Both the position numbers and the translations under genes were made by a program. Positions 7,100 to 38,000 of a stretch of DNA of 64,000 bases are shown one piece after another. Within the stretch, counting starts at the first letter, position 1; every line of letters begins with the position of its first letter. Below the pieces are notes generated by a model. The model saw only the letters and a program-made list of their open reading frames with translations, was not told the origin of the DNA and did not search any database. The stretch is from Owenia fusiformis (lineage: Eukaryota > Annelida > Polychaeta > Sabellida > Oweniidae). The stretch is taken from NCBI GenBank assembly GCA_903813345.2, contig CAIIXF020000008.1, positions 19,082,822-19,146,821 of the forward strand, given 5' to 3'.

Positions 7100-10000
7100 C
7101 AATTCAATTCAATTCACTTTATTTCAAATGTTTCAAATACAGTGTTTTACGTTGACATGAAAAGACACCCCGAGGGGTGTATAAGTTCCATGTTTAACAT
7201 ACAATATAGCATTTATTAAATTAACAGTCAGGTTATATGGAAACAAAAAAAAAATGACAAAGCATAACATGCATCACAATAAAATACAAGTAATAAGAAG
7301 AAAGCATTTTTCAAAGAAGGTCTAATAATGACTTAGCAAATCAAACTTTAACTTTCGTTCAAATGATTTGATATGTTTAGACTTTTTGAGATCAAGTGAA
7401 AGAGTATTGTAGAGTAATGGGCCACTTGTTTAGATTGATTTTCTTCCAATTTCTGTTCTGAATTTTTTTACAGTTAAATTCTTATTAATTCTCGTGTCAT
7501 GATTGTGAATTGCTGCTCCTGGAACAAATAAATGTTTGAACTTTTGAAAAGGAAATTCTGGTGATTCTGAAACAGTTTTCTGAACAAAGCTAGCGGTTTG
7601 TAGTTTATTGATGTCAAATATATTCAATATTTTCAGTTTTGAAAAGAGAGGTCCTGAAGGAGCCAGACGATCAGAATAGGTGATAACTCTCAAGAATTTC
7701 TTTTGCAGAACATACAATTTTTGAATAAGAGTTTTTATGGCATTTCCCCATAAAATGTTACAATAGCTTAAGTAGGAATATATCATGGAATAATAGATAG
7801 TGGTCATTGTATTTAAAGTCAGTCTATGTCTAGTCTTGTAGAGAAGGCCTATCAAGTTAGAAATTTTTGTACAGATAGCATTTATGTGACATGACCAATT
7901 CAGCTTTGAGTCAATAATGACACCTAGAAAATTGATTTCTTTAACTTCTTCTATAGGTTGTTCATTAATTTTGAGAACAATATTGTTTTTATTAGGATCC
8001 TTCTTTTTATTAAATATCATATATTTTGTTTTTTCAACATTAAGAGTTAATTTATTAGATTTCATCCAGTTAGAAACAGTTTTTAATTCAGCATTCATAT
8101 CTGAGACTAGAGTTTCAAAATTTTTATTGGTAAGTAGGATATTAGTATCATCAGCATATAAGACAAAGTTTAGTTTATTTGATATTAAATGTAAGTCATT
8201 TATAAATATTATGAACAAGAGGGGACCTATGACTGAACCTTGAGGGACACCATATTCAACTTTATTTTTACCGGATCTATATCTCATATCTGTAGTTGTA
8301 AATTGATCAATCAAGACATCTTTCTTAACAATTTCTGTGACCATAATTCGATTTTCGAGATAACTTTTGAACCAGGAAAGAGCTGTTCCACGAATACCAT
8401 AAAATTCAAGTTTTTGTAATAATATTTTGTGATCCACTGTATCAAAAGCCTTAGTCAAATCAATATATATCCCAATGCTAGTTTCCCCGATATCTAATGA
8501 CCTACGAATATTTTCAATGAAATTTAGAAGTGCCATATAAGTTGAGTGCTTCTTCCTGAAACCATATTGTTGTAAATATAAAATTTCATATTTTTCTAAA
8601 AATGTTGTCACTTTTACATGAACAATTTTTTCAAGCACTTTAGAAAATACACTGAGAATTGAAATTGGTCTATAGTTGTTGAATTTATCTTTAAGGCCTT
8701 TCTTATAAATTGGAATTACTCTAGCTATTTTTAATGCATCAGGAAATGTACCAGTAGTTATTGATAAATTGAATATCTGAGTAAGAGGAGTTGACAAAGA
8801 TTCGTTCAGTGTTTTCACTACTCTGGGTTCTATATCATCTATAGATGCAGCAGAGTCTTTTAAAGATTTTAATTGGGCCATGACATCAGTTTCAGTAATA
8901 GGTGTTAGAAATATTGAGTTATTATTTGAATTAGTTTTCTTTAAATTTACCATTGGATCTAGATTATTGTTTATCTTTTTTGCAAGTTTATTACCAATTG
9001 AACTAAAGAAATTATTGAAATTCTTAGCTATCTCAAGACCATCTGAGATTTGTGTATTTTCAAGATCAAATGTATCGTTGATATAAGATTGATTTGGATT
9101 TCTGTTTAAGATAGCGTTAATTACATTCCAAGATTTCTTTATATTGCCTTTATTTGTCTCAAATTTATTTCTGTAATAAGATTTTTCTGCATTTCTAATG
9201 ACATGGTTAAGCTTATTTTTATATCGTGTATATATTGCATTGTTTTCTAAAGTAGGATTCTTTTTATATTTTATGAAAAGTTTGTTTTTATATTTAGCTG
9301 AAATAATGATCCCGAGAGAAATCCAAGGTTTTTTATGATCATTATAGGTTTTAATTATTCTGGATCTGTTTGGTAGACATCTATTATAAATATCAGTAAA
9401 AATCTCAATGAAGGAGTTATATGCATTATTCACACAATTTTGATCAAGTATATCTTGCCAATTAATATTTGCGACCTCATCTTGGAGTTTGGAACAATTT
9501 TCATTATTTATTATTCGATATTGAATCTTTTGCTTTTTTATTTTAGGTGTTTCATTATTATTACTTACAGCATAAATTGGAAAATGATCTGATATGTCAT
9601 ATAAAATTATACCAGATTGGGTGATATTATTTGCATTGGTAAAGATGTTATCAATTAATGTAGCACAGTTACTAGTGATTCTTGTGGGTCTATAAATTAA
9701 AGGCATAAAATTATTAGTATACAAGTTACACAAAAAGTCATTTGTAAGGTCATGTTCATTTGATTTCAGAAGGTCAACATTAAAGTCCCCTAAAATATAG
9801 GCAAACTTATTTTCAGATGCCATTTTCTCTAAGTGTGAATTAAAAAGATTATTAAATTCATGTAAGTTAAAATTAGGTGGCTTATAAATAGCTGATACCA
9901 AAATATTTTTCCCTTTATTTTGTTTGATTTCTATGGAAACAGATTCACATTTATCAGAGTTTAATTTAAGATCTGATCTTTCAATAAAATTGTAAGTTTT

Positions 10001-10800
10001 TGCAATATGGAGGCAAACCCCGCCACCTCTTGAAAGTTTCCTTGAATCAAATACAGTATTATATCCATCTAATGTAAATTGCTTTTCAGATGATTCTGTT
10101 AACCAGGTTTCTGACATTGCTATGACAGAAAAAGAATTTTTACCAAGAGAGTTGAGCATTTCAAATTTCCAGTTATTCTTTGGTAAACTTCTCATGTTCA
10201 GATGAAGTAAAGAAAATGAGTCATATTTAATTGTTGAGTTTAATTTGTCAATATTATCAAAATTACACTGTTGAGAAATGCTATGCATTTGAGTTTGAAC
10301 ATTGTTAAACTGGTCTTCCGTGGCTAAGTGTTTATCAAAGTCAAGTGGATTTAATAGAAGATTATCATAATGATCTAGTCCATGTGCTAAGTCCAAAAAA
10401 TCAATGTTAGAACATGAATAAAATGGAAGGTCTTTTAAAAATTTAGCCAGTGTCAAGTTCAAAGTGCATTGAAAGTTGAATAATCATTTTTTCCTTGTAT
10501 AAATATGGGTAAATGCTTCCTTTATCAGTATAAAATGCTTTGAATGTCAACAGTACAAATTCATTCTTTGATCCTAAAGTAACGAAAGAAAATAACGAAT
10601 AAAAATAAAGGGGAGCAAGTGACTTGCTTGCAGAAATATGTACAAGAAATAGCAGCATATTGAGCATCTCTTGGCTCGAGATAACTGCTACAGATGCAAA
10701 AATGGAAATTAAAAGATATTTGCCATAAAGGCAGAAAAGTGAATTGTAATTTGTATAATGGAACATAGTTTAGTATTGAAAATGATTACCAAAATAGAAT
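7069..10800 (-). mobile_element. Non-LTR retrotransposon (LINE with APE endonuclease and RT)
   Basis: On the - strand a long endonuclease-RT frame is followed by a short 3' UTR (about 7321-7100). The UTR has an ACACCCC/GGGGTGT hairpin near 7165, a GAATT-type repeat (about 7100-7115) and an A-run that reads as about 29 T on the + strand (7070-7099). The 5' limit is uncertain; I place it near 10800 where recognisable sequence stops. A GAATTGAATTG-type tail and lack of RNase H suit the CR1/L2-like group, but the clade is not settled by inspection. Confidence 0.85.
7430..10462 (-). CDS. LINE ORF2: APE-type endonuclease and reverse transcriptase, one late stop
   Basis: This 1010-codon frame encodes the retrotransposition enzyme that nicks target DNA and primes reverse transcription from it. 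The endonuclease (about residues 85-300) shows LHLNMRSL, MSETWL, GDFNVDLL near 226 and SDHFPI near 291. The reverse transcriptase follows with YRPISIL, FRKKHST, YIDLTKAFDTVDH, GVPQGSVIGPLLF, the catalytic YADDT near residue 770, and FLGVIID. No RNase H or zinc knuckle is seen. The frame ends at a TAA, but translation past it reads on in the same frame for about 35 codons (PLLYNTL, then a basic helix) to TAG at 7324-7322. That tail is typical of these proteins, so the TAA looks like a recent nonsense mutation. The Met start at 10462 is only the first in the frame. A 107-codon frame upstream (10766-10443) overlaps in another frame and is not recognisable. Confidence 0.92.
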   Translation of the reverse strand: MNLTLAKFLKDLPFYSCSNIDFLDLAHGLDHYDNLLLNPLDFDKHLATEDQFNNVQTQMHSISQQCNFDNIDKLNSTIKYDSFSLLHLNMRSLPKNNWKFEMLNSLGKNSFSVIAMSETWLTESSEKQFTLDGYNTVFDSRKLSRGGGVCLHIAKTYNFIERSDLKLNSDKCESVSIEIKQNKGKNILVSAIYKPPNFNLHEFNNLFNSHLEKMASENKFAYILGDFNVDLLKSNEHDLTNDFLCNLYTNNFMPLIYRPTRITSNCATLIDNIFTNANNITQSGIILYDISDHFPIYAVSNNNETPKIKKQKIQYRIINNENCSKLQDEVANINWQDILDQNCVNNAYNSFIEIFTDIYNRCLPNRSRIIKTYNDHKKPWISLGIIISAKYKNKLFIKYKKNPTLENNAIYTRYKNKLNHVIRNAEKSYYRNKFETNKGNIKKSWNVINAILNRNPNQSYINDTFDLENTQISDGLEIAKNFNNFFSSIGNKLAKKINNNLDPMVNLKKTNSNNNSIFLTPITETDVMAQLKSLKDSAASIDDIEPRVVKTLNESLSTPLTQIFNLSITTGTFPDALKIARVIPIYKKGLKDKFNNYRPISILSVFSKVLEKIVHVKVTTFLEKYEILYLQQYGFRKKHSTYMALLNFIENIRRSLDIGETSIGIYIDLTKAFDTVDHKILLQKLEFYGIRGTALSWFKSYLENRIMVTEIVKKDVLIDQFTTTDMRYRSGKNKVEYGVPQGSVIGPLLFIIFINDLHLISNKLNFVLYADDTNILLTNKNFETLVSDMNAELKTVSNWMKSNKLTLNVEKTKYMIFNKKKDPNKNNIVLKINEQPIEEVKEINFLGVIIDSKLNWSCHINAICTKISNLIGLLYKTRHRLTLNTMTTIYYSMIYSYLSYCNILWGNAIKTLIQKLYVLQKKFLRVITYSDRLAPSGPLFSKLKILNIFDINKLQTASFVQKTVSESPEFPFQKFKHLFVPGAAIHNHDTRINKNLTVKKFRTEIGRKSI

Positions 10801-18000: not shown

Positions 18001-21000
18001 GATAAATAAAGATGAATTTAAGGATGTTGAGGGTGCCAAAAAATTTTGGTACATGACAACATTGCCTCTTCAAAAATTGAGATGTACTTCACCAAATTAT
18101 CTTCTGGAACTGAATCAAATTTTTACAATCAACTTTAGTACTCTTATGTACAAGAAACATATAAAAACTGAATTGTGTGTTTTATTTCATCATTTGTGTG
18201 TGTATAAACTCCTATATTCATTACTTTTAATATACCTGTCTTTCGCTAATTACTAATGATTTTTAAACAAAAATAGCTTTTAGGGAAGTTAAAAGAATTA
18301 AAATCAACAGGTAGAGATTCCCTTACTTAATCTCGCTCCTTATGCTCTATGTACATGATTCAGGAGAAAATTTTTATATAGAAAACATTATGTCATAAAA
18401 TTGTTTATTTTCAGGACAGCAATACATTACTGACTGATCTCCGAGAGGTTCAATGTGTGATCTTCTCACATATCCACCAGATGTTCATAGCTGAACCTAA
18501 TTTAGCTAAGTTGGTACACTTTCAGGTATGTTAGTTGTTGAACTTCCATTTGTTCTCCATATTTAATGATTTGTGTTCTTTTTAAATAAATCCTTATATA
18601 TATATACATATTTGTATGTACTGCTGTATAGTTATATACATATTATATATGTATATTTATCCCATACTTGGACGTGTTACAGGTACATAAAGCCGGTTTG
18701 TAAAAACTTATATTTTCATCAGCGGGCAGATATAGCTTTACGTCCCGCTCCGAGCGGGCAGATATAGTATATCTGCCCGCTACGTCATAATCGCCGCTCG
18801 CATAATTTGTAACGTTCGCGTAATGACTGTAAACGACAATGGAGAAAACACACACAATCGGGATCTGTTTAATGGTTCAAAAAATGGAAGGAGCATCCAC
18901 TTAATCAAAAATCCGAGAAAATAAATGTGGGAATATTTGAGAGAACCGGAAAATCCGCCCACGGCCAAGAAAACAAAACTGGACATGAATATTCTAAAAT
19001 ATTTCCACGATTGAACAATGTGAACCAGATTACCAAGATTGGTATGGGATAAACATATTATCCTATAGTCGGTTCAGGATATTGGGATTATCCCTTGGCC
19101 AATATAATATATTATATTTGCCTCGGGATAATCCCAATATCCTGAACCTCATATAGGATAATCTCTATTTATCCCACCCTAAGTGCTTTATATGATTGTA
19201 TAATAGCATTGTATAACTGCAATATAAAACCAACACTCGTCGTATACAACTCTTGAGAACGATATACAACTCCTGGATAGCGTATACAACTCCTGGGCAG
19301 CGTATATAACTCTTCGACTTGATATACAACTGCTGAATTTAGATTAACCTTTTATTGATTAGCCTAAAGATTAGGGTGGGATAATAAGATCATATAATGG
19401 TTGATTCTGTATATCGTTATACTCTCGTGAGTATATGATATATTCACTCGTTCCCTTCAGTCACTCGTGAATATATCATATACTCACTTGAGTATAAACA
19501 CGATATACGGAATCAACCATTATATAACCTCATAGTATATCATGTCATATTGTAATGTTATGTGCTCCAGGGTTATGATGTGTCACTTCTACCATTGACG
19601 GTTGCTGCTATTCCTTCAATGCACATATGTCTTGACTTCATCCCCGAACTCCTCAGCCAACCACATCTTGAGAAACAGGTACGTTCATAATTTCATGAAA
19701 GTTCACTGTTCCATTTTAATAATAATTAGTACATAGGTATATCGAGAGCTGACTAGTTTCTGTCTTGAGCAGGCTGGATGCATTTTTAGACTGTAGTCTA
19801 TGCTTTTCCAGGGAGCCAGTTATATGAGTTGATTTAAAAGTTGATGTTTGCCTTTGATCACCTAGCCCATTTGTCTCATGTTGTACACTTTGTGTTGTGT
19901 GTCATTCCAGGTGTTTGCAGTTGTCTTAGTGTCCTATTTGAGTCTCCAATACCCACTGCCAAAAGCTTTAGATGTCGCTAAATTAGCGGTCAGTGTCCTA
20001 ACCACTCAACTTGGAGGTAAGTTTCAACATTTTTCATCACACGTCACAAGAGCTATACTTGTAAATGTTAACACCTCAATTTCAATACTTGTTTTTGATT
20101 GAAGTTCGAGAGTGTCCTTGGGAGTGCTCAATACTTGTATGCAATTAACCTTGAGAAAGGCCAATGATTGTATATGGTCAACTTGAGAGAGGTCAATACT
20201 TGTACATGTATTCAGTCAATCTTGAGAGAGATGAACCATGACATTATTGGCTATTAATTGACCTATCAGATTGGAGTATTTACAATGAGGTACTTTCAAT
20301 AATTATCATCAGTAGGATTACAAGCTGATGCCTCTAGATTGTTTGTTTTAATGCGAATCAATTTACAAAATGCCCTTCGGAATTGTTTCATCCGATAACT
20401 GTATATCAGAGGATTGATTCCTGAATTACCAAAAGCTAAAAGCTGGAAATAGGAAAACGAGGAAACAATGATTAAATTTTCTGTCGCAGTTTTGTCCCAA
20501 AGAAAGAATCCGTCGAGAACTGTAACAGGTGTCCAACACAGTAGAAATACACCAATGACAATCACTGAAGTTTTCAAAATAACCATATTTTTTCTTTTGG
20601 TGCTCATAGTTTCATGATTAGTACTAGTATCTTCATGATTGGTGCCAATGTCTTCATGATGAGCGATCATCTTGGATTGTTTGTGAATCACAGTGAAGAT
20701 ATGTATATAAAGAATGATCTGGATCACTGATGTTAAACAAAATATTAGTATGTACAGATACGCTGTGTACTGTGGTACACAGTCCAATTTTGTGGCTGGT
20801 CTTGATCCTGTTTCTATAATCGATATACAGCTATATCCAATGACAATAGCCCATATAGTACAAACTGCAATTTTGGCTCTTTTGTACGTCATGATATCAT
20901 GATATCTCAGCGGCCAGAAAACAGCGACATATCTGTCAACCGTCACACCAACTAACATCACTAATGACATAAATATTGAAATATCATAGGAAAATGTTAT

Positions 21001-24000
21001 CACCGCACAAAATATTTTGTAAAGCAGATTTCCAGGTTTTGCTTGAAGAAAAGGCACAACCAATGATACAATTTGTTGCAATCCCATTGAGAAGTCTGCA
21101 ATCGCTAAGTGTAGAATCCAATAATTTGCGACTGTTTGTAATTCTTTATATCTTAGATATGCCGTTATCACTAATCCATTCCCTCCACAAATCCAAATGA
21201 GAAATATGATTTTGATGACGAGAATTGGAATATTTATTTCATAAATTTCGTTATTTGATTCATTATCAAAGAAATGGCTGTTGTTCACTGCTGATATGTT
21301 TTTATCATCCATTTTTATTAAAGAATCATTATTGTGTCAGAAAGTACTATATAGAGCACGTAAATAAACATGAAATATTGATCTGGAACCTCATTTGTCC
21401 GATTATCTTTAAGTTCAGCGCTGCATATCGGCTTTCTCAGATTTACAGCCTGTCTGCAAAAGAGAGTGTTGACTTGCCAATCCGTAACTTTATGATGCTC
21501 GTATAAATCAGGTGGAGGTTCTTAAATATACGAGAAGCAGATATTTCCAAAATCATAAAAATGTGATTTCTCTTCCATGATAAAGTGAACACTATATATG
21601 CATATTTTGAACCAGGAATGATAATCCAATAAATAATCAAATTATGACTGCTTTCCAAATGATCGTGTCTCTCAATGTCAATGTCTCTTTTATAATTGCA
21701 TTGATCCTGCTCTGAAAGCCTCTTTTAATTATTCATATTCATAATAATGGTCTGATGTGGCAATCAAGTGCTTAATTAAAGTAATGCCTTAAAGTAGTTT
21801 AAAATTGTCATTAGTTGAACATATCACACTATTAATATTTAATACACTAGTTGGGGGACAAGGGATATTGTTTGTTGGGAATGGTAGTAATTTTAGTTGC
21901 CCTGGTCACAAATGAGTGAGTAAATTTTGTGAATCTATAACAAGTACTTATTTCTTACAATGTAGACTGAGCTGTTTATAAACAGTTCATATCTATATTA
22001 TAAGCGCTTTGAAAGACTAAAATTGCCTGATTGTGATATTTTACCAAGAATGCCTTATTTTTGGTAAAGAAGGCCTGATCATGATATTTAACCAAGATTT
22101 TTTTTAATCAAAAACCTGCAACTTAGACAAAATAATCCACTCTATATCAATTCTAAATCAGTCTGCAGAAATTTCTTTAGATCCCAGTTCTGATGAAAAT
22201 ATCCGGATTAGTTGATGGGACTCTGCTTTGTTTTATTTTTAAAAAATTTTTTAGAAATATTTCTTGGTACAGAGCTGGAGCAACTGATCTGCTCTTCCAC
22301 CAAACCAGCATTAGGTTCTGATAAATCAGAATGCCCACTAGCTATTTACTGGGAAATATTCTTAAAAACAATATAGCAGAGATACATAAATTAAAAAAGG
22401 AAATGTTCTAGTTTTGTTCAGAAAGACAGAAATGACTGTAGTATTTGATCGAGAATTTTCGTAATAATAAAATAAAATTGATTTATTTCCAAGTGCATTT
22501 TAATCGAATAAATAATAGAATAATTTAGGCATTTGAAAGGGTATTACACCTTTTCAATTTCTGTTGTTATTATCCCACCGAACGAAGTTCGAGAGGGATA
22601 TAGGAAAGCCGTTCGTCCGTCCCTTTGTCCGGGCGATAACTCAAATACCGTTTCACGGATTTGATTCAAATTTTATAGGCTTATGCCTTATGGGTGTAGG
22701 ACCTCTGCTCGAGAAGGAATTTTCAATATGGCCACTGAATTCAAAATGGCCGCCATTTTTCGTAAAAAATGTAATCTTTAACCAGAACAACGGCAACGCC
22801 AAAGCGTAGCGAATCCCATCGAACAGAAATGGCTGGCATTTTTACAAACGAAATATATAGCAAATATCATAAAAACACACCAGAAAGGCCACCATTTTCA
22901 AAATGGTTGCTCACTAGCCAAGTTGTCATCAGAAGAAATAATATGCTTTTAAGTAGCCACCTATAAAATTTTAGAAAAATCGCACACATGTACTTGTAAA
23001 ATAACACACATAAAAATGGTGGCCATTTTTCAATATGGCCGACTACTCCCCAAAGTTTTATTAGACAATGTGCCATGCTTAGAGTATTCACATATCAAAT
23101 ATGAACAAAATCACTCCACTACTTTTCGAGTTATAGTAAAATAAGTTAAAATGGCGGCCATTTTTCAAAATTTTTCAAAATGGCCACCTTCTACCAAAAG
23201 TGTCATTGGACAGTGTGCCATGCTTATAGTATTCACATACCAAATATGAACAAAATCGCTCCACTACTTTTCGAGTTATAGTAAAATATGTTAAAATGTC
23301 GGCCATTTTTCAAAATGGCCGCCTTCTACCAAAAGTGTCTTTAGACAGTGTGCAATGTTTATAGTATTCACATACCAAATATGAACAAAATCGCTCCACT
23401 ACTTTTCGAGTTACAGCAAAAATCGTAAAATAACGAGTAAAGGCCGCCATTTTTCAAGATGGCTGCCATGTGCTTTTTTAATATCTACATTTGTAGCTTT
23501 ATTAATGTCCTTTATAATTTTTTTACACTAAAAACATATTGCTATTACAGTTTTACATATTGTACCTAAATAACTGTAAAATCAGCATCTAAAATGGCCG
23601 CCATTTTGAAATGAGCGGCCATTTTGAAAATCGGCTTTCGAGCAGAACTTCTACCCCCATAGGGTATATGTGTACAAAATATGAACAAAATCGGGCCAAC
23701 GGTATTTGAGTTATTGCCCGGAGGGACGGACGGACGGAGGCGTTCCCTATATCCCTCCGAACTTCGTTCGATGGGATAATAACTCAAATACTAGTTTGCG
23801 GATTTGGTTCAAATTTTATATGCTGATGCCTAGGGACAAAGGAGTTTTGCACAAAAAGAGATTTTAAAGATGGCCGCTTAATTTCAAAATGGCGGCCATT
23901 TTTCGTAAAAATATGTAATCTTTGATAACTCAAATAGTTCAAATTTTATATGTTCGACAAAAATTTTTCAAGATGGCCGCTGAATTTCAAAATGGCAGCA

Positions 24001-25875
24001 ATTTTTCGTAAAAACGTAATCTTTGATAACTCAAATACCAGTGAACAGATTTGGTTGAAATTTTATATGTTTATGCCTAGGGACACAGTGGCTCTGTTCA
24101 AGAAATAATTTTCAAGATGGCGGCTGAATTTCAAGATGGCGGCCAATTTTCGTAAAAAACGTAATCTTTGATAACTCATATACCAGTGAACGGATTTGGT
24201 TCAAATTTTATATGATGATGCCTAGGGACACAGTTGCTATGTTCGACAAAGAATTTTCAAGATGGCCGCTTTATTTCAAAATGATGGCAATTTTTCGTTA
24301 AAAAACATAATCTTTGATAACTCAAATACCAGTGAACGGATTTGGTTCAAATTTTATATGATGATGGCTAGGGAAACAGTTGCTTTGTTCAAAAATGAAT
24401 TTCCAAGATGGCCACTGAATTTCAAAATGGTGGCCATTTTTCGTAAAAAAAACCATAAAATTTTGATAACTCTAATACCAGCGAACACAGTATGGAGTCA
24501 GGGACACAGTAGCTCTGTTTGAGGAAGAATTTTCAAAATGGCAGCTGAATTTCAAAATGGTTGCCATTTTTCTTAATTCAAATTTTATATGCTGATACCT
24601 AGGGACACTATAGCTCTGTTCGAGAAAGATTTTCAAAATGATTGCAGAATTGGCCGCCATTTTTAGTAAAAAAGAATGTAATCTTTGATAACTCAAATTT
24701 TAATTTATGGATATGGTTTACATTTTATATGTTGATGCTTAGGGACAAACAAGCTCTGCTCAAGAAGGAATTTTCAAGATGGCCACTAATAATCTAAATA
24801 TGTTTTGTTCGGTGGGATTTGCTACTCCGCGGAGTTGCTGTTTTTCTAGTTCTCTTAGTTTTCGTTCAAATGTGTTTCAGTTCTCAAAGCTGATCAGCGT
24901 GCAGAGTTCTTCCTTCCCACCTTGCAGCCAATAGTGCGGATCGCCAAGGCATTCCCACCCTTAGTAGATGATATTGTGGCCTTCTTACAGCAACTAGGGA
25001 GGGCATGTGAATCTCATATAGCAGTCATGGAGGGCCACATACTGAAAGGTAGGGCATGTGAATTTTATATAGCAGTCATGGAGGGCCACATACTGAAAGG
25101 TAGGGCATGTGAATCTCATATAGCAGTCATGGAGGGCCACATACTGAAAGGTAGGGCATGTGAATTCTATAAAGCAGTCATGGAGGGCCACATACTGAAA
25201 GGTAGGGCATGTGAATTTTGTATAGCAGACACGTAGGGTCACATACTGCAGATAAATAATTGCAAATTCTAGGGATTTTCCAAAATAGATGTGAAAATTG
25301 GCGGATTTTTAATTTGGCGGATTTTTGAATCCGCCAATCCGTCAAACTAAAACAATAGCCAAATTAAATATTTACAGTACTGAAAGGTAGGGCATGTGAA
25401 TTTTATATAGCAGTGATGGAGGGCCACATACTGAGAGGTAAGGCATGTGAATTTCATTTATAAGTCATAGAGGGCAACTTACTGAAAGGTAGGGCATGTG
25501 AATCTCTAATGTTTAGGTATACTCAGATTTATCAGACCCATTATAAACTCATAAACCACTTGGTTTAGCTCTTGTTTAGTAAGATTTTTTTGTATTTACC
25601 TGAATAGTTAGTATTGTCAGCATTAACTGGGAACAATTCAAGAGATTTGGTGGAATTTAAAAAATAATAGAATTACTATCATTATCTTTTTTCTTTCAGA
25701 CAATACAACTAACCCATCAGCCAATAGAGAAACTGAACCTGAAATATCAAGCCAAATGACAGAGGAGCAGAAATTGAACAATAAGTTACCAATATACCTT
25801 GAACTATCACAACAAATACAGAGAACGTTTTCTGATGTTGTTAAAACAGCAGCCCTTGTGCCAGTAGATTGTTAG
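12083..25875 (+). CDS. INTS2: Integrator complex subunit 2, C-terminal third (eight exons)
   Basis: INTS2 is a scaffold subunit of the nuclear Integrator complex, which cleaves snRNA and nascent mRNA transcripts at RNA polymerase II. Exons: 12083-12284, 13488-13613, 14955-15180, 18415-18525, 19571-19678, 19911-20016, 24881-25048 (or later donors), 25700-25875 with stop TAG. All junctions are GT-AG and phases agree throughout, giving about 406 residues; vertebrate INTS2 is about 1200 residues, so the N-terminal two thirds lie to the left. Recognition rests on conserved blocks: LNCLMQLSAEDIIPYADAL, RVMTVNALRS, IPSMHICLDFIPELL, SLQYPLPKALDVAKLAV and a FFLPTL...AFPPL block, in family order. The first exon here needs one base from a preceding exon. 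No domain has catalytic residues. The C-terminus (FSDVVKTAAL) matches the family end. The seventh exon has a 51-bp repeat; one intron houses a GPCR gene. Confidence 0.93.
12364..12503. mobile_element. Foldback MITE-like element
   Basis: GGTTATGTAC at the left is mirrored by GTACATAAC at the right, and GGTTTTGGATATGGG by CCCAATATCCAAACC. The centre is a second palindrome (GCATATCTACC / GGTAGATGTGC). The whole stretch folds as a long hairpin. It is intronic and non-coding. Confidence 0.6.
12511..12783. mobile_element. MITE with ~22-bp terminal inverted repeats
   Basis: The left end TATCCTATACCAAGTAGAG is the inverse of the right end CTCTACTTGGCATAGGATA. The interior is T-rich with AGATATGCCC and GGAGATATGG motifs. 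It abuts the foldback element at 12364-12503 and may be part of one composite. Confidence 0.6.
12852..13115 (+). repeat. Intronic repeat family Q, copy 1
   Basis: Contains GGACAATCTCAGTAGCAATACAG and AAGAACTGACCAATCAGAGGGCTTCATTTT. The reverse complement of these blocks occurs at about 17605-17880 in another INTS2 intron. Internal GTATTG...CAATAC inverted segments suggest a foldback MITE. Confidence 0.6.
13755..14857. mobile_element. hAT-type non-autonomous transposon with 8-bp target duplication
   Basis: The ends are CAGTGTTTTTTCTGAGTG at the left and CACTTAGGAAAAACACTG at the right, inverted copies of each other. The element is flanked by AATGTCAC at 13747-13754 and again at 14858-14865, an 8-bp direct duplication as expected for hAT transposition. 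No transposase frame is present. A second repeat (14172-14530) lies inside. The insertion is in an INTS2 intron. Confidence 0.85.
14172..14530 (+). repeat. Family P repeat (GTCACCAC hairpin start)
   Basis: Begins with a CACCAC(n)GTGGTG hairpin followed by ACATATTGTTATGG, then GGTTGGTGG-type repeats and two copies of a CATCTACAAGTTTTCAGAAG block. Similar 5' starts occur at 44668 and 55088, and related sequence at 40790. It is nested in the hAT element. Confidence 0.5.
15369..15766 (+). repeat. Two direct copies of an ~87-bp sequence
   Basis: Positions 15369-15455 and 15681-15766 share ATGAACCTCATTTG, CTTATGC..GGGTTAG/AGGTTAG, TTAGCAATRTTT and CATCGATT in the same order and orientation. They are non-coding, within the INTS2 intron after the 14955-15180 exon. 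The rest of 15181-15943 shows nothing recognisable. Confidence 0.65.
15944..17516 (+). mobile_element. HINE/Helentron-like repeat, family G
   Basis: The 5' palindrome TAGCTCACATGGTGAGCTA occurs twice, 39 bp apart (about 15948 and 15987). A TCTGTCTGTCCGTCCGTCC microsatellite follows (16019-16125). The interior has four diverged copies of a block with TCTGTCGATAGGATTCC and ACTCCTGGTTCAAAAGCTTG. Near the right end CACCATGTGAGC (about 17489) is the inverse of the 5' arm, followed by hairpin AGTACC-CAC-GGTACT. No frame is conserved. Confidence 0.6.
17605..17895 (-). repeat. Intronic repeat family Q, copy 2
   Basis: The inverse orientation of the repeat at 12852-13115: GAAGCCCTCTGATTGGCC, GTACCAATCTGTGTTACTAC and GGGGACAATCTC are found in order. 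Both copies lie in INTS2 introns. Confidence 0.6.
18590..18790. repeat. TA/TATG microsatellite and GCGGGCAGATATA palindrome
   Basis: A TATATATACATA tract (18594-18660) is followed by GCGGGCAGATATAG at about 18723, a second copy at about 18755, and inverted TATATCTGCCCGC at about 18769. The inverted pair forms a hairpin of at least 13 bp. Confidence 0.6.
19030..19185. repeat. Foldback element with GATATTGGGATTATCCC arms
   Basis: The left arm (GGTTCAGGATATTGGGATTA) is mirrored by the right arm (TAATCCCAATATCCTGAACC). Outer segments ATGGGATAAA and TTTATCCCA also pair. A TATAATATATTATA core forms the loop. Confidence 0.65.
19225..19335 (+). repeat. Short tandem repeat of TATACAACTCCTGG
   Basis: Five imperfect units of about 20-22 bp (CGTATACAACTCTTGAG, CGATATACAACTCCTGG, GCGTATACAACTCCTGGGC and so on). 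They lie between two foldback elements in the same intron. Confidence 0.6.
19372..19530. repeat. Foldback element with ATAATGGTTGATTC arms
   Basis: ATATAATGGTTGATTC at about 19395 is mirrored by GAATCAACCATTATAT at about 19511. Inner ACTCGTGAGTATATGATATA and TATATCATATACTCAC segments also pair. The arms span about 55 bp each. Confidence 0.7.
20296..21312 (-). CDS. Class A (rhodopsin-like) G protein-coupled receptor, single exon
   Basis: A 338-residue seven-helix plasma-membrane receptor. The N-terminus carries three N-glycosylation sequons (N5, N10, N17). Hallmarks: GN at 44-45 in helix 1, LAIAD with D73 in helix 2, Cys102 paired by position with Cys178, DRY at 126-128 followed by VAVFWPLRY, CWTP at 259-262 in helix 6, and NPLIY at 300-304 in helix 7. 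After helix 7 a short tail contains FRRAFCK, with Cys316 a likely palmitoylation site. The third intracellular loop holds three 7-residue repeats (HHEDIGT, NHEDTST, NHETMST; 218-238). The intronless frame begins at a good Met just before the first sequons. The gene lies antisense in an INTS2 intron. The ligand cannot be read from sequence; resemblance is generic to amine/peptide-type class A receptors. Confidence 0.9.
   Translation of the reverse strand: MDDKNISAVNNSHFFDNESNNEIYEINIPILVIKIIFLIWICGGNGLVITAYLRYKELQTVANYWILHLAIADFSMGLQQIVSLVVPFLQAKPGNLLYKIFCAVITFSYDISIFMSLVMLVGVTVDRYVAVFWPLRYHDIMTYKRAKIAVCTIWAIVIGYSCISIIETGSRPATKLDCVPQYTAYLYILIFCLTSVIQIILYIHIFTVIHKQSKMIAHHEDIGTNHEDTSTNHETMSTKRKNMVILKTSVIVIGVFLLCWTPVTVLDGFFLWDKTATENLIIVSSFSYFQLLAFGNSGINPLIYSYRMKQFRRAFCKLIRIKTNNLEASACNPTDDNY
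21340..22560. other. Intronic sequence, nothing recognised
   Basis: This stretch holds AT-rich unique-looking DNA upstream of the GPCR gene, so it probably includes that gene's promoter. No gene, RNA or clear repeat ends were seen. Confidence 0.5.
22569..24849 (+). mobile_element. HINE/Helentron-like repeat, family C, with nested inverted copy
   Basis: The 5' end TCCCACCGAACGAAGTTCG is partly palindromic and is followed by GTCCGTCCC. Near the right end GTTCGGTGGGA (about 24808) is the inverse of the 5' arm, then hairpin GCTACTCCGCGGAGTTGC and CTAG at 24846-24849. The interior is a run of diverged ~100-120-bp repeats with AAAATGGCCGCCATTTTTCG and TTTGATAACTCAAATACCAG motifs. No frame is conserved. 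It ends just 31 bp before an INTS2 exon. Confidence 0.6.
22786..23778 (-). mobile_element. Reverse-oriented family C copy nested in the 22569 element
   Basis: On the - strand, 23778 to about 23690 reads as a 5' end (TTATCCCATCGAACGAAG..., then CCGTCCGTCCGTCCC). Positions 22835-22786 read as the 3' end (TTCGATGGGATTCGCTACGC...TTGCCGTTGTT). The plus-oriented copy continues on both sides, so this copy inserted into it. Confidence 0.55.
24881..25048 (+). CDS. INTS2: INTS2 exon with tandemly multiplied splice donor
   Basis: This exon follows acceptor GTGTTTCAG (to 24880) and encodes the VLKADQRAEFFLPTL through HILK segment. It ends with CTGAAAG before GTAGGG. The last 51 bp of coding sequence plus the donor are repeated downstream; identical AAAG|GTAGGG sites have GT at 25049, 25100, 25151 and 25202. 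Each extension adds 17 codons and keeps phase 1, so all four splice in frame to the exon at 25700. Family comparison favours the first donor, because the 17-residue unit has no counterpart repeat in the known proteins. Confidence 0.85.
24998..25250 (+). repeat. 51-bp minisatellite spanning an exon-intron boundary
   Basis: Five units of exactly 51 bp (GGGCATGTGAAT...CATACTGAAAGGTA). Units 1-4 are nearly identical and open; unit 5 has changed (CACGTAGGG), creating an in-frame TAG at 25234-25236 and losing the donor. Three more units follow at 25379-25510. Confidence 0.95.
25379..25510 (+). repeat. Detached units of the 51-bp minisatellite
   Basis: Two to three further units with CTGAAAGGTAGGGCATGTG and CTGAGAGGTAAGGCATG. 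They are separated from the main tract by about 130 bp of other sequence. Donor-like sites recur, but the in-frame stop at 25234 lies before them. Confidence 0.85.
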
Positions 25876-26840
25876 CGTTTGGATCAAAAGTTATGTAACT
25901 GTCCTTTGTCTTAATCATGATGGAGAATGAAAGAAATGGTTTCCAGCATTAAGGAGCATGGTTTATACACTGCGAATATGATAAAAACCATATGTCTTAA
26001 GGCCATGTGATGTTTATACATGTGGCATAGTGTACAACAATGTCCTTTGTGGAAGATCACCTCAGATGTTTTTGTCCCAGTTGATTAGTGATCATTTTAC
26101 AAAGGAGCACGTAGGTTATCGCAAACAATTTCAGAAGGTTATATCTTGGATTATGACTATTTTCTAACAATGAAGAAAGGTTTATCTTTTAGATCAATTC
26201 ATCATCTCAAAGAAATTTATATACAGTAATAATAAAGTCAAACAAACTCGGAGATATTTAACTAGCAATCAACCCATCAACACACTTTTTCAAAGATGTT
26301 GATGTATCAAATGGTTCTTGAAAGAAAAACTTAATTGCTTTAAGATATCATTTATACAATGGGAATATGAATTAATAACCATCTGTCTTATACAGCCATA
26401 TGATTCTTATACACGTGGCACAGTGTACAACGGTGTCTTTTGCAGGCGATCACTTCCTGCTTTTATCACAGCTGTGTCGTGATAATTCTACAAATTTGGT
26501 TTGTTTATTATATTAACGCATTTCATTTATTCAAAGTATGTAGGCGGTTTCTCTTAACAAATGTTGGCATATAACATGTATTATTTCCTGTGAAAATCAG
26601 ATGCGAGTGAAAATAACATTTTGTACAGAAAGCTTGAAAGCTAGCTGTTACAAATTTCTCTGTTTAAGCAGCTATTCATGATGTCATGAACTGGTCATGA
26701 ATACAACACTAGGCTATAGCCCGACGGGGAATATCTCTATATTAAACAAGAATGTTATGGAAAAATGACTTATGGAGACCAAGAGAACCAAACCAAATGG
26801 TCTACATACTGCATCGTTACAGTTTGCTAAATTTTTCCTC
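25876..26840 (+). other. INTS2 3' UTR and downstream flank
   Basis: Follows the INTS2 stop. An AATAAA at 26231-26236 is a candidate polyadenylation signal. Two related blocks (about 26000-26060 and 26385-26450, with ATGTGGCA/ACGTGGCACAGTGTACAAC) suggest a local duplication. No gene was seen. Confidence 0.5.
26231..26236 (+). terminator. Candidate INTS2 polyadenylation signal AATAAA
   Basis: A canonical AATAAA lies 356 bp after the stop codon; no better site was noted between. Function is inferred from position only. Confidence 0.45.
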
Positions 26841-32000: not shown

Positions 32001-35000
32001 TCAGAATGGTGAAAAACTGCATGATTTTGAAATAAATTTTGGCCAGGGGGGGATTCGCCTGAACCCCCCGAACCCCCCCTGGCTACGGGCCTGATATTAC
32101 ATTGTCACTGTCATGCCAGGCCTTGCAGTACTATATTACATTGTCACGGTCATGCCAAGCCTTGCAAAACTATATTACATTGTCACGGTCATGGCAGGCA
32201 TTGCAATATAATACAGCATTGTCACGGTTATACAAGGCTTTCACGATAACATTACCACGGTCATGGCAGGATCCTTGCGCTACTTAAAAACACTGAATAA
32301 CATGGTGACAGTTACGCCAGGCGTTAGTCTTGCAACAGATAGGGTCTCGGGAAAGCAGAATGCTGTCTAGTCAAACTCAATGATGATTCTTGTAAGAAGG
32401 ATGAAATACTTATAGTAAATCGCTAGTAATTAACTAAATCATCACCAATTTTGGCAATATTGCCAAATTAATTAGAGCAATGAGATAAAGAATCATGGGA
32501 ATTTAAGATCAATCCAACACACTAAAAGAAGAGTTAACAAAGTAATCAAACAGTTTAGAATTTTTGAAATATGAATGTTTCTGTATGCTCTTGCTCTTAT
32601 ATCTGCTTTTATATGTATGACCCCTAATAGAAATCAGTACCCTCTATGTACAATGTCTAGGCCTACAACTTTTTTTTTTGTGATGACTCAACAAATATGA
32701 AATAGTCTAAAGTTTTAATACCTGGCTAACACAAAGGACTTCATATTTTTTATCCATCACATTTTTGTTCCATCTCTTCCCCGCATCACTGTCAAAGATT
32801 CTTAAATTCAGTATCTTTCTAGCCCTGAAACAGAAAATGTATTTCGACAATTCAGGATGGGTATATCGATGGGTTCTCAAGATTCCTAATATCTTTAAAT
32901 AAATACATGTACACTATTTTGGGAAAAGATAATGGAAAATTATACTCATATAATCTCATACCCCATATAATCGTCACCCAGATTGTTGACAATTGGGACC
33001 CCATTCTAGCTGTTTTACTTACAAAATATCACTTTCTTTTGTGGTATCATCTCTAGATATGCCTACTAGAACACAGATCCCTTTCCCAATGGAGCTAACT
33101 ACTTCATCTCCCACTGAAACAATGAAATACGTAGCTGCGAGTACTATAATCAATACATGATGAAGACAATATTTTGATTGTATAGGCTACTTGGGCATCC
33201 TTTTGATCCGATCCCCGAGGGTTTGTTCAAGTCGATGAGGAGGCATGGAGGAAACAACAGATCTACGACGTTGGGAGTAGATAACTAGGCCAGACGGGTT
33301 TGGTTAAGGCTCAGCTTACCAATCAGGTAAAAAATCTCAGAAAAGCAAAACGTAATTATAATAGACGCAGTGATCCAGCCAACTGGGCTGTCTACACCGG
33401 GCTTGCCGATCAGTTTGCCTCAGATGTCAAAGAATGTGAATCTCAGTATTGGGACAAATTGTTCGGGGAGCTCTGTGTGGGCAGAGAAACTTCTGGGAAT
33501 TGTCATCAAAAAAGGAGGCAACATGTTACATCGCTCAATCTGGAAACTAGCCCAGAAATGTTGGGAGGGGGGAGTCCTGCCCTCTGAATTCAAGATAGAC
33601 CCCAAATCTATGCTTGGAAAACCCAACAAAAAAGACTACAACACTGAGAGATCATACAGGCCTATAACACTTGAATCTTTAATTGGGAAAATCCTGCAGA
33701 GAATAGTAAGTCCCCGGCTCTCATGGCGCTGTGAGGTTAACAACATATACTGCAGCCACCAAGACGCGTACAGAGAGCATAGGGGATGTTCTCAGACTGT
33801 CATCAGATTCATTCAGTCTGTACAGGCTGCTCTCAATAGAGGTGAAACTGTCATAGCTGCTGTATTAGATTATGAAAGATGTTTTGAGCGGATCTGGCGG
33901 GAGGGACTGATTTACAAAATGGCTCAAAATGGCATTGGGGGAAGACTGCTCGTATACATCTCCCAGTACCTGTTCAACAGGCAGTTCTCCATCACTGCCA
34001 ATGACCATACTACCAGTCTTATTACATCAACGGTGGGTATTCCTCAGGGATCTGTGCTATCCCCATCCCTCTGCAACATTTATACTGCGGATTCCATGGC
34101 TAATGTTTTGTCTCATACGGCGGGATTTGCTGACGACAACACCATTTGGTCTAGTGGTGTTGACATAGCAGCCATAGAACAGAGAATAAACAAAGACCTG
34201 GAGTAAATTGCAGGTAAATGGTGCAATAAGTGGAATATGGAGATAGTGCCGGAGAAATCAGAAGTACTCATCTTCACCCCACCTGGAAAAGTGAAACCTA
34301 ACATCAGCATTCGCTTCAGGAACAAGCAACTTCCAATAGTCCACTCAAAGAAAATCCTGGGAGTCACAGTCGATGATGAACTCAACTTCGAGCAACACAT
34401 CAACCTGAAAAAGAAGTCCGCATTCGGAGCACTGGCAGGTATTACTAACTTTACCAGCTGCAACTCTGGGTGCAGTGAGGAAGTTTTCACCACACTTTAT
34501 AAGACACTGGTGATCCCTCACTTTGAAACTGGTATAAGTGCTATTGCTACAGCCACAGACAAAGCAGCAAAAGCCTACTCTTCAGTCCAACGTGCTGCAC
34601 TCCTAAAAACAACAGGATGTTTATCAACAGTGAGCACCGAATCACTGGAGGTGATAGCTCAGTTCTTCTCATAGACATACACCTGAGAGCCAGACAAGCT
34701 CAAGAGGCGGTCAGAATATTATCTCATAATATAACTGACCCTATTACTGAAGAATACCATCATTGGGCAGAATCTGGAAAACAAGAAAGAAAGCCTACCT
34801 GTTTTAACATCTTAGCAGCTAGACTCAGATTGCATAACTGTCCAACCAAACCAACCAACTACGTCAAACACAGCTACTACCAAGCAGATGCAGAGACCTT
34901 TTTACCAGCTGATGTCATCGTGCATACCGAGGATTTCAGCAGATCTAAATCCGAGCAATCTCATCGCATCAACAACTTGCTGAATGATCTTGATGGCTCG

Positions 35001-38000
35001 GAGACTGTTATCTTCACAGACGGATCTGCTGAGGGCAACCCAGGACCAACTGATGCTTCAGCCATTATTTACATCAGTGGCTTAAAGAGCAATCCGGTAT
35101 GCCTGGAGGAACCAGTAGCCAGTCAGGGCAACAACTATACTGGAGAGGTCACTGCACTCAAGCTGGCTGTGGAATTCATTGTCAAAACAAGGACGTCAGA
35201 TAAAGTTATCATACTATCTGACTCCCAACCAGCTATAACAACTGCCTTTCTGAACACTAAACTCAAAAATATGATGCCTAAAATTTTCAACATAAGAAAA
35301 GCTTGCAAATCACTTTCCATGCTAAAGGAAAACTTAGAAATCTTCTGGGTACCTGGGCATCTAGGAATTGAGGGCAATGAGGTAGCTGATAAGATAGCCA
35401 AAAAAGCTACTAAAACAGCCACAACCCTCCCACCCCCAAAAACAACAAAAACAATGGCTTACAAATCAATTAAAAATAAGTCTATTGATAAATGGCAAAT
35501 TAGGTACAGCTACTCTGATAAAGTCAACTTCAAAACCTTATCCCACAAGTAAAAGTACAATCACAATCAGTAAAGTTAGGTAAAAGATACAGTCCGACAA
35601 AAGTCAATCAAATTATATCTGGGCACACCCGTCTCAATGGCCACTACTACAAAATCAACCCTGATCTCCCCTCTCCTAACTGTGAACACTGTAATTCACC
35701 AGAAACTTTGCATCATTTCTTGTTTCAGTGCAGCAAATACAGTACACAGAGGGAGGTTATGCTAGCAGCTATAGACACTGTACTACTAGGAGCCAACCAC
35801 AGCCCAACCATAGACTTACAAACCATCACAGGTCTTAACACGAACTTAGACCAGCAAATCAACATAAAAATAGTAGAACGACTACAACAGTTCATACTAT
35901 CTACTAATAGAATTTAACTACGTAAAACAACACTGAGATAGTGACTCTTAACCCTTTCACGACGATAGGCTCCATATGGAGCCCTATTTTGTAATACCTT
36001 TCAGGACGATAGGCTCCTTTTGGCACCATTATTTTTATTTATATACATCAATGAAATGACAATATCTCCAGTTCTATTCAGTATTTTTACACCAAATTTT
36101 GACAAGTTGTTCTTATGTGATAATCCTTACTAAAAATTGTATATCAGTGATGAAATCCAAGGTATAGGTCCCAGGGCATAGGTATTTTGCAGTTTTCCCC
36201 TAAAAAACACTCTTACTTATCCGTCACTGGGGACAACATTTTCCTCTTATATTCACGTCGGGAAAGGGTTAAACAAAAGTTTTTTATTATAACTGAGAAA
36301 TTGACTCTTTTAGATGACGAAAACTAATGTAAAATGCGCACTCTCAAAAAGTAAATCAAAACAAGTATTAGTGAAAAGTACAAGTGATAACATAGTACAA
36401 AGTGAAACCAATGTATCTAGTGACCAAAGGCAGCATTAAAGTGCCATCGTGTTAAGTACACTAACACGTAAATTGGATAAAGAAGAAGAAGAAATTGAAC
36501 TCCTACCAGATATTCTAAAAGAACACAATGTAATGATACTTTCCTGAAAAAAGAAGAAATTGACACATGCCTGCCTTCATACTTTATTTTGTACCAGAAA
36601 ATAACATGTGCAGGTATTAGCAATTTTTTACCAAAACTAAAATGTTACGCAAAGGCTAGAGTACAGACAATTGTCGGTACTCTAGATTTTGCTTTGTTGA
36701 CAGGCTAGAGGACCGACAAATAAATTGTCGGTACGGGAGACTTTGCTGTGTTGACACGCTAGAGGACCGACAAATATGAGAGCACTTTACCCCTTAGTAG
36801 GATCTAATAGAGAACTGACCAAAAGTCTGTGGGTCTGCTAAATACTGTAGGCCTAAAACATCTAAACAGCTAAATTTTCAAGCATGGTGATTTCGCCTTT
36901 ATTTGCCTGAATGTAAAATCGCGAATTTAAAACTGTGTCTTTTCCGGAGTAATGTGGATGAATTAATGGAACAAATGAAGAATAAAAACTACTGAGAAAA
37001 ATCTGTATTCTAATTGTGTTTTGTTTATTTTATTCAAGCGTTAGGCCTATAGAGTATAGACTACGCAATTATAAAACAAACGTGAAGAAAAACTTAAAAG
37101 TCGTATTTGAATACATTTGTTTGTTTCAACACTACATGCTGGTTATAAACAATAAAACATGTACAATATAAAGTTAGTTGAAAGAGCGTCTGTTGTTTAA
37201 AATACCATCATCAGGGGTATAGCCAGCTTCCAGTCACGTACGCGTGCGATCGCCAAAAATCGCCTTTCAGTCAGGAGGGGGGGACGTGACATACAGGTAA
37301 GCAACCCAACCAAAACAAACTTTTTTATTACAAAAATTGATGCAACTTCCTTCAAAAACCCGGGCTTCAAACGTGAGCGAGAAGCTGCAAATTAAACGCA
37401 TTTGAAAGGTCTTCTCTTTATCGGATCTATTGTTATTGGTTATGGGGTTCAGTCGCATCCCCCTGGATGATAAAACCAGTCATCAAAGCAACGAGCAGTC
37501 TCACGACCCGACCCTACATGTACATATCAACAATCAACAGGCGACTTAATATCTCAATATATACTCATGACAAGAAAGTTTGTAAGTTTAATTAAACCTT
37601 TATGGGTTTTATTTTCAAAAAATAACATGTGGCAATCATGACTGGATAATTAGCAGGAAATAACCCTAATTGACATAAGCTTATATAACCAACTAGAAAA
37701 ATAATCTCATAACAATGTTGCACTCAATTTTTTCCAAAACAGGTTTCATTTCTTATCACAGTTCGGTGCAGTTTTATTAGAGACAATTCATTTTGTAAAC
37801 AGAATGTATTTAATATTACTATCCGTGTATTGTGGTTATAATTCGCAAAAACATCAGGAAATTATGAATTACTAAGCCAGCCAGTCTTTGAGGGTAAGCC
37901 AGATCATTGTAGCATCAATGGCTCAAAATATCTATTTAGCTACTACCTGAGACTAACATAAAAGGGATTGGAAACTCTACTGATATAAAAAGAAATAGAA

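Follow-up and report, generated by a model that had tools for sequence, protein, structure and literature searches.

The splice donor of the penultimate exon of INTS2, which encodes an essential subunit of the Integrator complex, has been multiplied by a 51-bp minisatellite. We read this array as a neutral minisatellite of the "mirage" type, with the donor at 25049 mainly used, and give this reading a probability of roughly 0.7. It is favored because of the length of the protein tail, the recurrence of similar arrays at other splice junctions, the rates at control points, the chance-level frequency of periods divisible by three, and the precedent in amphioxus. The array seems to be a side effect of the abundance of tandem repeats, not a purpose-built ladder of protein lengths. 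Positions below are those of the window, the whole 64-kb stretch of DNA that was analyzed.

24879-24880, + strand: acceptor AG of the penultimate INTS2 exon, read from the sequence
24881-25048, + strand: penultimate INTS2 coding exon, ending at donor 1 (residues ...LKADQRAEFF...MEGHILK; PF14750; aligned with human INTS2, 7cun_B)
25002-25205, + strand: repeat units 1 to 4, 51 bp each; unit 1 exonic, units 2 to 4 beyond donor 1; unit 3 the same as unit 1
25049-25050, + strand: donor 1 (GT), phase 1; predicted as most likely the authentic splice site
25100-25101, + strand: in-frame donor 2 (GT); use would add 17 residues
25151-25152, + strand: in-frame donor 3 (GT); use would add 34 residues
25202-25203, + strand: in-frame donor 4 (GT); use would add 51 residues
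25206-25245, + strand: left part of unit 5; the whole unit has 5 changes from the array majority
25234-25236, + strand: in-frame TAG in unit 5, which would stop any read-through and any product of donors 5 to 7
25244-25379, no strand assigned: dispersed MITE-like element (about 25246-25377) with TA repeats on either side (25244-25245 and 25378-25379)
25380-25506, + strand: rest of unit 5 on the right, then units 6 and 7 and the beginning of unit 8; no similarity beyond about 25506
25387-25388, + strand: donor 5 (GTAGGG); if used, the transcript would stop prematurely at 25234, 150 nt upstream of the junction
25438-25439, + strand: donor 6 (GTAAGG), best score in 24881-25699; if used, the premature stop would lie 201 nt upstream of the junction
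25489-25490, + strand: donor 7 (GTAGGG); if used, the premature stop would lie 252 nt upstream of the junction
25700-25875, + strand: predicted last INTS2 exon, 57 codons after the split codon and then a stop; open frame, in phase

That the gene is INTS2, as originally proposed, was borne out by 17 exon-level matches to PF14750, all on contig C8 and in gene order; the penultimate exon matches model positions 1004 to 1050 (E = 5.7e-11). The unit consists of the end of this exon plus GTAGGG, so the exon-intron boundary lies inside it. Its first copy is in the exon, and there are about eight tandem copies from 25002 to 25506, starting at 25002, 25053, 25104, 25155, 25206, 25391, 25442, and 25493; the eighth is partial. 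TRF gave two blocks, 24996-25248 (period 51, 5.0 copies, 91% matches, score 413) and 25378-25503 (period 51, 2.5 copies). Thus, the repeat that the original prediction placed at 24998-25250 is real but larger, with three more donors. Tandem repeats with periods of at least 20 bp make up 9.6% of the window; an Rfam scan of the window gave a 5S-like match only. Searches for COX1 and for the GFP family gave 0 matches, which for GFP is no proof of absence.

Units 1 to 7 differ pairwise by 0 to 12 bases. The interior of the array is homogenized and its edge has diverged: units 1 to 4 differ from each other by 0 to 4 bases, and units 5 to 7 differ from the other full units by 3 to 12. A 134-bp insertion splits unit 5 directly before its donor, which resumes at 25387. 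The two sides of the split unit together make exactly 51 bp, and the unit register is kept across the element. Unit 5 had been described as having gained an in-frame stop and lost its donor; the TAG is present at 25234, but the donor is displaced, not lost. Tandem repeats are a usual site of assembly errors, and the repeat itself could be such an error; however, the units are not all identical, the element interrupts the array with the register kept, and the four clean units span just 204 bp. A crude artifact is thus highly improbable, and the structural part of the original prediction holds.

A search of the genome with the unit, which skips very common words, gave four matches, all at C8:19107817-19108329, i.e., in the INTS2 array. 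Because the unit DNA matched only the INTS2 locus in this search, it derives from the local exon, and a transposon origin of the unit was rejected; the dispersed part is the insert, which is present in at least 39 other places in the genome (among 40 scored matches of 294 candidates). No second copy of the array locus was found in the genome search, with very common words skipped and one haplotype represented.

Donors 1 to 4 are exact copies of CTGAAAG/GTAGGG (the slash marks the exon end) spaced 51 bp apart, as first reported, and all seven GT copies match in 21 to 24 of 24 bases. Each of the first four joins the exon at 25700 in phase 1, giving 113, 130, 147, and 164 residues from exon start to stop, which agrees with the predicted additions of 0, 17, 34, and 51 residues. 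That the units are open in frame is nearly automatic, because the unit is almost all exon sequence and 51 is a multiple of three. The four donors score 5.7 bits with a donor matrix, at least as high as four of the six other INTS2 donors in the window, and their U1 duplex is -9.7 kcal/mol. Since they are identical in sequence and context, the choice among them cannot depend on local sequence. Two observations count against a preference for donor 1: identical donors give no local reason for it, and the intron-proximal of two donors is reported to be favored by factors such as SRSF1.

The later donors have other predicted consequences. In nonsense-mediated decay, a stop codon is expected to trigger decay when it lies more than 50 to 55 nt before a junction, and transcripts spliced from donors 5 to 7 would carry their stop 150 to 252 nt before it. 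The donor at 25438, the best in the interval, scores 7.4 bits with the same matrix (U1 duplex, -10.1 kcal/mol). Use of these donors, or intron retention, could therefore lead through the TAG at 25234 to decay, and the array would lower INTS2 output, perhaps according to allele length. We consider such a brake very unlikely: units 5 to 8 have decayed and taken in a transposon-like insertion, as expected without constraint, and nothing points to regulation.

The protein tail bears on which donor ends the exon. In an ungapped alignment of 161 residues with human INTS2 (7cun_B), on which the comparison rests, donor 1 leaves a tail of 64 residues beyond the aligned block versus 65 in the human protein (1139 of 1204); donors 2, 3, and 4 would make tails of 81, 98, and 115 residues. 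The match in length could be a coincidence, because the last exon and the human tail have no detectable similarity: searched alone against the PDB, the predicted last exon gave 0 matches at E values up to 10, and homology with the human tail was not detected in that search. An AATAAA is present at 26231, beyond this exon. When the read-through exon (116 residues) was modeled with AlphaFold, the mean pLDDT was 40.1, which supports no inference.

Lengthening of the exon could also be complete, with the authentic end now at donor 4 (or 2 or 3) and the extra units a fixed, species-specific insertion in INTS2. Units 2 to 4 are open and unchanged over unit positions 19 to 51, where units 1 to 4 have 0 changes and units 5 to 7 have 12 in 99. 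However, only donor 1 matches the human tail length, and the third codon positions are equally free of changes, a sign of recent duplication and not of constraint; we hold this reading to be quite unlikely. At the third codon positions of units 1 to 4 within positions 19 to 51, there were 0 changes where about 4 were expected (P = 0.018, or 0.07 if two lineages are counted), a pattern that fits recent homogenization better than coding constraint. The four variable columns of units 1 to 4 fall within 7 of the 51 positions (0.4% of random draws); this clustering, together with the intactness of all four donors, could be used by a selectionist against a neutral reading.

We surveyed splice junctions elsewhere in the genome using 212 myosin, kinesin, and INTS2 exons, with the window's own INTS2 exons left out. 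For myosin there were 210 candidates, of which 65 were scored as matches, and for kinesin 218, of which 122 were scored; sequence was retrieved for 92 of the 102 myosin/INTS2 matches listed and for 120 of the 127 kinesin ones. The myosin set contains 12 tandem copies of one exon, and 17 of the 18 copies of one kinesin array on contig C2 were excluded beforehand. From the 424 exon ends, 85 with no predicted site (38 acceptors and 47 donors) were dropped. Junction positions are predicted, and a copy was counted if it lay within 170 bp. On these terms, 17 of 339 predicted junctions had a nearby copy, 3 of these arrays being irregularly spaced; at one (L035) the predictor may have chosen a neighboring copy, and at least one donor array found by TRF (L084, 67 bp) was missed by the junction test. 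Tandem repeats with periods of at least 15 bp overlapped 21 of the 212 exons (6/92 myosin/INTS2 and 15/120 kinesin).

Copies were found at 2 of 212 mid-exon points and, among intronic controls, at 19 of 333 points 100 bp from the junction and 28 of 328 points 130 bp from it. There was no excess at junctions over these intronic controls (P = 0.73 and 0.09); the controls lie in the same introns and, in part, in the same arrays and so are not independent. We therefore rejected the idea that arrays are born preferentially at splice junctions. Donors had copies less often than acceptors (4/165 versus 13/174; P = 0.045), so multiplication of donors may not be fully neutral. Among the 14 regular arrays, 4 had a period divisible by three (5 of 15 once the INTS2 donor array is added), about the chance rate; the frame was not kept above chance among these junction arrays, and selection on frame as the cause of the array was rejected. 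In the other 10 of the 14, splicing to another copy would shift the frame. One of the 17 junctions belongs to a second INTS2 array, at another exon, which has four acceptors 62 bp apart, the three upstream ones giving stops. All copies are in frame and open in two kinesin arrays, one at a donor (57 bp, 5 copies) and one at an acceptor (36/42 bp, 4 copies).

These results bear on the suggestion that the donors form a functional and harmless graded ladder, in which donors 2 to 4 are partly used and INTS2 isoforms with 0, 17, 34, or 51 extra residues are expressed, with copy number varying between individuals. The four early donors are identical and as strong as most others of the gene in the window, every isoform from them runs in frame to a common stop, the two kinesin arrays show the same openness, and the amphioxus mirages are described as varying in copy number between haplotypes. 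Nevertheless, the three donors past the TAG would be harmful in any choice made by position or strength, similar arrays keep the frame at the chance rate, the INTS2 acceptor array gives stops, the tail made with donor 1 is within one residue of that in humans, published mirages are said not to disturb splicing, and the INTS2 array is seen in one haplotype only. The ladder is thus unsupported, and we rate it as rather unlikely.

The neutral reading with donor 1 mainly used suggests the following history. The first step would have been the duplication of a 51-bp piece that comprises the last ~49 exonic bases and the very start of the intron. It probably came about through slippage or unequal exchange, with exonic AGGGAGGG and donor-site AGGTAGGG as the two sequences involved. 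Unequal exchange may then have expanded the array to about eight units, as the order of unit types, S-F-S-F', suggests. A short DNA-transposon-like element presumably entered unit 5 later, after which the far units would have diverged while turnover kept units 1 to 4 nearly identical. The extra donors would be mostly tolerated, the exon-most donor at 25049 most likely giving INTS2 of ancestral length. Such an array may have arisen because minisatellites are common in the introns of this genome and strike junctions about as often as other intronic points.

Natural arrays of identical splice sites offer a ready test of how the spliceosome chooses where sequence cannot decide, and the survey suggests that they are numerous in this genome, affecting both kinds of splice site, whether or not the frame is kept. 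At INTS2, the four early donors are predicted to be productive and the three late ones not; RNA reads could thus be sorted unambiguously, which makes this array a good test case. A wider proposal, which we think unlikely, is that about 1 in 20 predicted junctions lies in its own tandem array, that the spliceosome relies on a cue beyond site sequence (transcription order or exon definition) to choose between identical sites, and that at the few open loci with periods divisible by three (INTS2, the kinesin donor, and the kinesin acceptor) copy-number variation is expressed in the population as graded variation in protein length.

Our literature search found precedents for duplication and for donor competition and no other donor minisatellite in INTS2. 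Introns are reported to have been gained by tandem duplication of AG/GT segments in the potato RdRp gene, where the duplicate crosses the intron-exon boundary (PMC4974935), in fission yeast, with a 24-bp unit in several copies (PMC3629103), and in Drosophila (PMC2891723). These cases share with the INTS2 array a local tandem duplication carrying splice signals, but the INTS2 array multiplies an existing donor, and no new intron is seen; by inspection, the 51-bp unit contains no pyrimidine-rich acceptor tract. DOK7 intron 4, as described in PMC5585400, likewise has several competing donors per acceptor (predicted to be usable in INTS2), whereas the INTS2 donors are identical in sequence and context.

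The closest parallel is with the mirage minisatellites of amphioxus in Adh3, the globins BflGb6 and BflGb9, TnC, and PGBD5 (PMC3087553, PMC3902484), and in the literature searched, the term in this sense was found only in the amphioxus work. In these papers, mirages are said not to interfere with splicing and to differ in copy number between haplotypes (6 versus 3 units). Their reported hosts are cephalochordates; the assembly analyzed here has 12 large contigs (about 477 of 498 Mb), which does not fit the 19 to 20 chromosomes of Branchiostoma. Their units are 10 to 160 bp, compared with 51 bp here. Unlike what is described for them, the INTS2 unit is a multiple of three and open, so that the early donors all stay in frame, and a transposon-like element lies inside the array. 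In both kinds of array, tandem units cross an exon-intron boundary, splice signals are intact in several copies, and evolution is concerted within the array and its edges have diverged; in both genomes acceptor and donor sides are affected.

The INTS2 array, a 51-bp minisatellite that has multiplied the donor of the penultimate INTS2 exon, is real and richer than first described. When the genome (498 Mb, 525 contigs) was searched with profile PF14750, INTS2 gave 17 exon-level matches, spread over ~51 kb and confined to contig C8. The window spans C8:19082822-19146821. The penultimate coding exon, which starts at 24881, matches the end of the profile (positions 1004 to 1050, E = 5.7e-11). Each of units 1 to 4 ends in the donor CTGAAAG|GTAGGG (donors 1 to 4, with GT at 25049, 25100, 25151, and 25202), and each would be spliced in phase 1 to 25700, the start of the predicted last exon, giving 113, 130, 147, or 164 residues from the penultimate exon to a common stop. 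Thus, the original prediction of four identical, in-frame donors 51 bp apart is correct as far as it goes.

Units and additional donors of the INTS2 array (window positions)
25002, 25053, 25104, 25155, 25206, 25391, 25442, 25493: starts of the 51-bp units (unit 1 lies within the exon)
25387, 25438, 25489: three further donors, 3' of the insert in unit 5

Unit 5 was said to have acquired an in-frame stop and lost its donor. The stop is present (TAG at 25234), but the unit is divided by a 134-bp insertion, beyond which the donors resume; the 40 bases to its left and 11 to its right make exactly one 51-bp unit. The insert, flanked by TA on either side, has ends that are alike but imperfect (TACTGCAGATAAA versus, on the opposite strand, TACTGTAAATATT). 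It belongs to a dispersed family scored at 40 places among 294 candidates, the INTS2 array being one of them. This copy differs from the majority of 17 others in 7 of 115 columns; those 17 themselves have 2 to 9 differences in 112 to 115 columns. Because most of the copies fetched reach farther left, the unit 5 insert may be a short form of its family.

Scored with a donor matrix and U1 duplex energy, the top donor in 24881-25699 was 25438 (7.4 bits, -10.1 kcal/mol); the remaining six donors of the array scored 5.7 bits and -9.7 kcal/mol. Use of 25387, 25438, or 25489 would include the TAG, placing it 150, 201, or 252 nt, respectively, from the junction. The joined C-terminal protein aligns without gaps to human INTS2 (7cun_B) over residues 979 to 1139 of 1204. 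Past this block the human protein has 65 residues, and the Owenia fusiformis protein would have 64 with donor 1 and 81, 98, or 115 with donors 2 to 4. The near-equality with donor 1 is suggestive only, because the last exon by itself had no match in the PDB at E values up to 10.

Genome matches to the DNA of units 2 to 4 were confined to the array, and 6 of the 10 exact genome matches to the donor-spanning 13-mer lie within it; by these matches, the unit derives from the INTS2 exon. AGGGAGGG, in the exon at the start of unit 1, and AGGTAGGG, at the donor, are alike at 7 of 8 bases, and the first duplication may have occurred via this short homology. The order of unit types in units 1 to 4 (S, F, S, F', with units 1 and 3 identical) suggests that a two-unit block was duplicated later.

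Relative to the array majority, 6 of 204 bases are changed in units 1 to 4, against 15 of 153 in units 5 to 7 (P = 0.011); positions 19 to 51 account for none (of 132 bases) of the former and 12 (of 99) of the latter (P = 2.6e-5). These P values are a guide only, since related units are not independent. The third codon positions of 19 to 51 in units 1 to 4 are also unchanged where ~4 changes were expected (P = 0.018, or 0.07 counting two lineages only), which favors recent homogenization over protein constraint. Counter to homogenization, the four variable columns of units 1 to 4 fall inside 7 positions, as did 0.4% of random draws. A tentative explanation for this clustering is gene conversion over the remaining part of the unit.

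Is the INTS2 array special? We surveyed exons picked by protein family alone (myosin head, kinesin motor, and the 5' half of INTS2). Of the exons sampled, 6 of 92 (myosin and INTS2) and 15 of 120 (kinesin) had a coding match overlapped by tandem repeats with a period of at least 15. A predicted junction was counted if the 24 bases over it had a copy (at least 20 of 24) within 170 bp; 17 of 339 did so, and the rate was somewhat lower for donors, at 4 of 165, than for acceptors, at 13 of 174 (P = 0.045). The frequencies at intronic control points were 19 of 333 at 100 bp and 28 of 328 at 130 bp, so junctions were neither enriched nor clearly spared (P = 0.73 and 0.09), and they exceeded mid-exon points (2 of 212; P = 0.014). 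This recurrence of junction arrays is the main new result of the analysis.

Junction arrays discussed in the text
C6:40706160-40706357 (locus L068): array of a kinesin donor; 5 copies, period 57 bp, every one open and in frame
C6:34539205-34539402 (locus L047): array of a kinesin acceptor; 4 copies, period 36/42 bp, every one open and in frame
C8:19063300-19063560 (locus L019, 1-260; site at C8:19063499): second INTS2 array, four acceptors spaced 62 bp, three full units identical

Spacing was regular in 14 of the 17 arrays, and the period was divisible by three in 4 of these 14 (57, 42 with one 36, 159, and 84 bp), or in 5 of 15 counting the INTS2 array. This is about the proportion expected by chance and lends no support to the proposed functional ladder of graded protein lengths. 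Among the 17, the two kinesin arrays listed above resemble INTS2 donors 1 to 4 in that no copy breaks the frame or brings in a stop. At the second INTS2 array, the three upstream acceptors lead to stops. Since INTS2 tolerates this splice-site array with a period not divisible by three, it is likely that only one of its acceptors is selected, irrespective of which donors are used at the 51-bp array.

Other features observed in the genome and the window
C2:23266359-23269174: 159-bp repeat in 18 tandem copies, matching positions 290-327 of the kinesin motor model
C9:37986009-37994334: 12 tandem exon copies that match roughly one segment of the myosin head (positions 18-84) and may form a large set of mutually exclusive exons
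20296-21336, minus strand: 346-residue open frame in a single exon, rhodopsin-type receptor-like by eye, nested in INTS2 intron 20017-24880
7430-10483 (minus) and 33331-35552 (plus): open frames that, judged by eye, look like reverse transcriptase-containing polyproteins of retrotransposons
47994-48113, minus strand: 5S rRNA match, 89.8 bits, full model length
55165-55349: very clean tandem repeat, 46 bp x 4.0 (98%)
62097-62985: very clean tandem repeat, 444 bp x 2.0 (98%)

The INTS2 array is best read as one of many minisatellites of the mirage type, in which the unit straddles an exon-intron boundary, in a minisatellite-rich genome. Its in-frame ladder is a chance property, common to a few other arrays; the array is still a type of locus at which a length ladder could be expressed. 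The literature we found on the term concerns amphioxus only, which does not imply absence from other groups. In that work (PMC3087553, PMC3902484), "mirages" was coined for the boundary-spanning tandem repeats of amphioxus Adh3, and others are described in globin, TnC, and PGBD5 genes; regular splicing is said to be undisturbed, and lengths are said to differ between haplotypes and, at Adh3, somatically too. The structural features given there are found in the INTS2 array.
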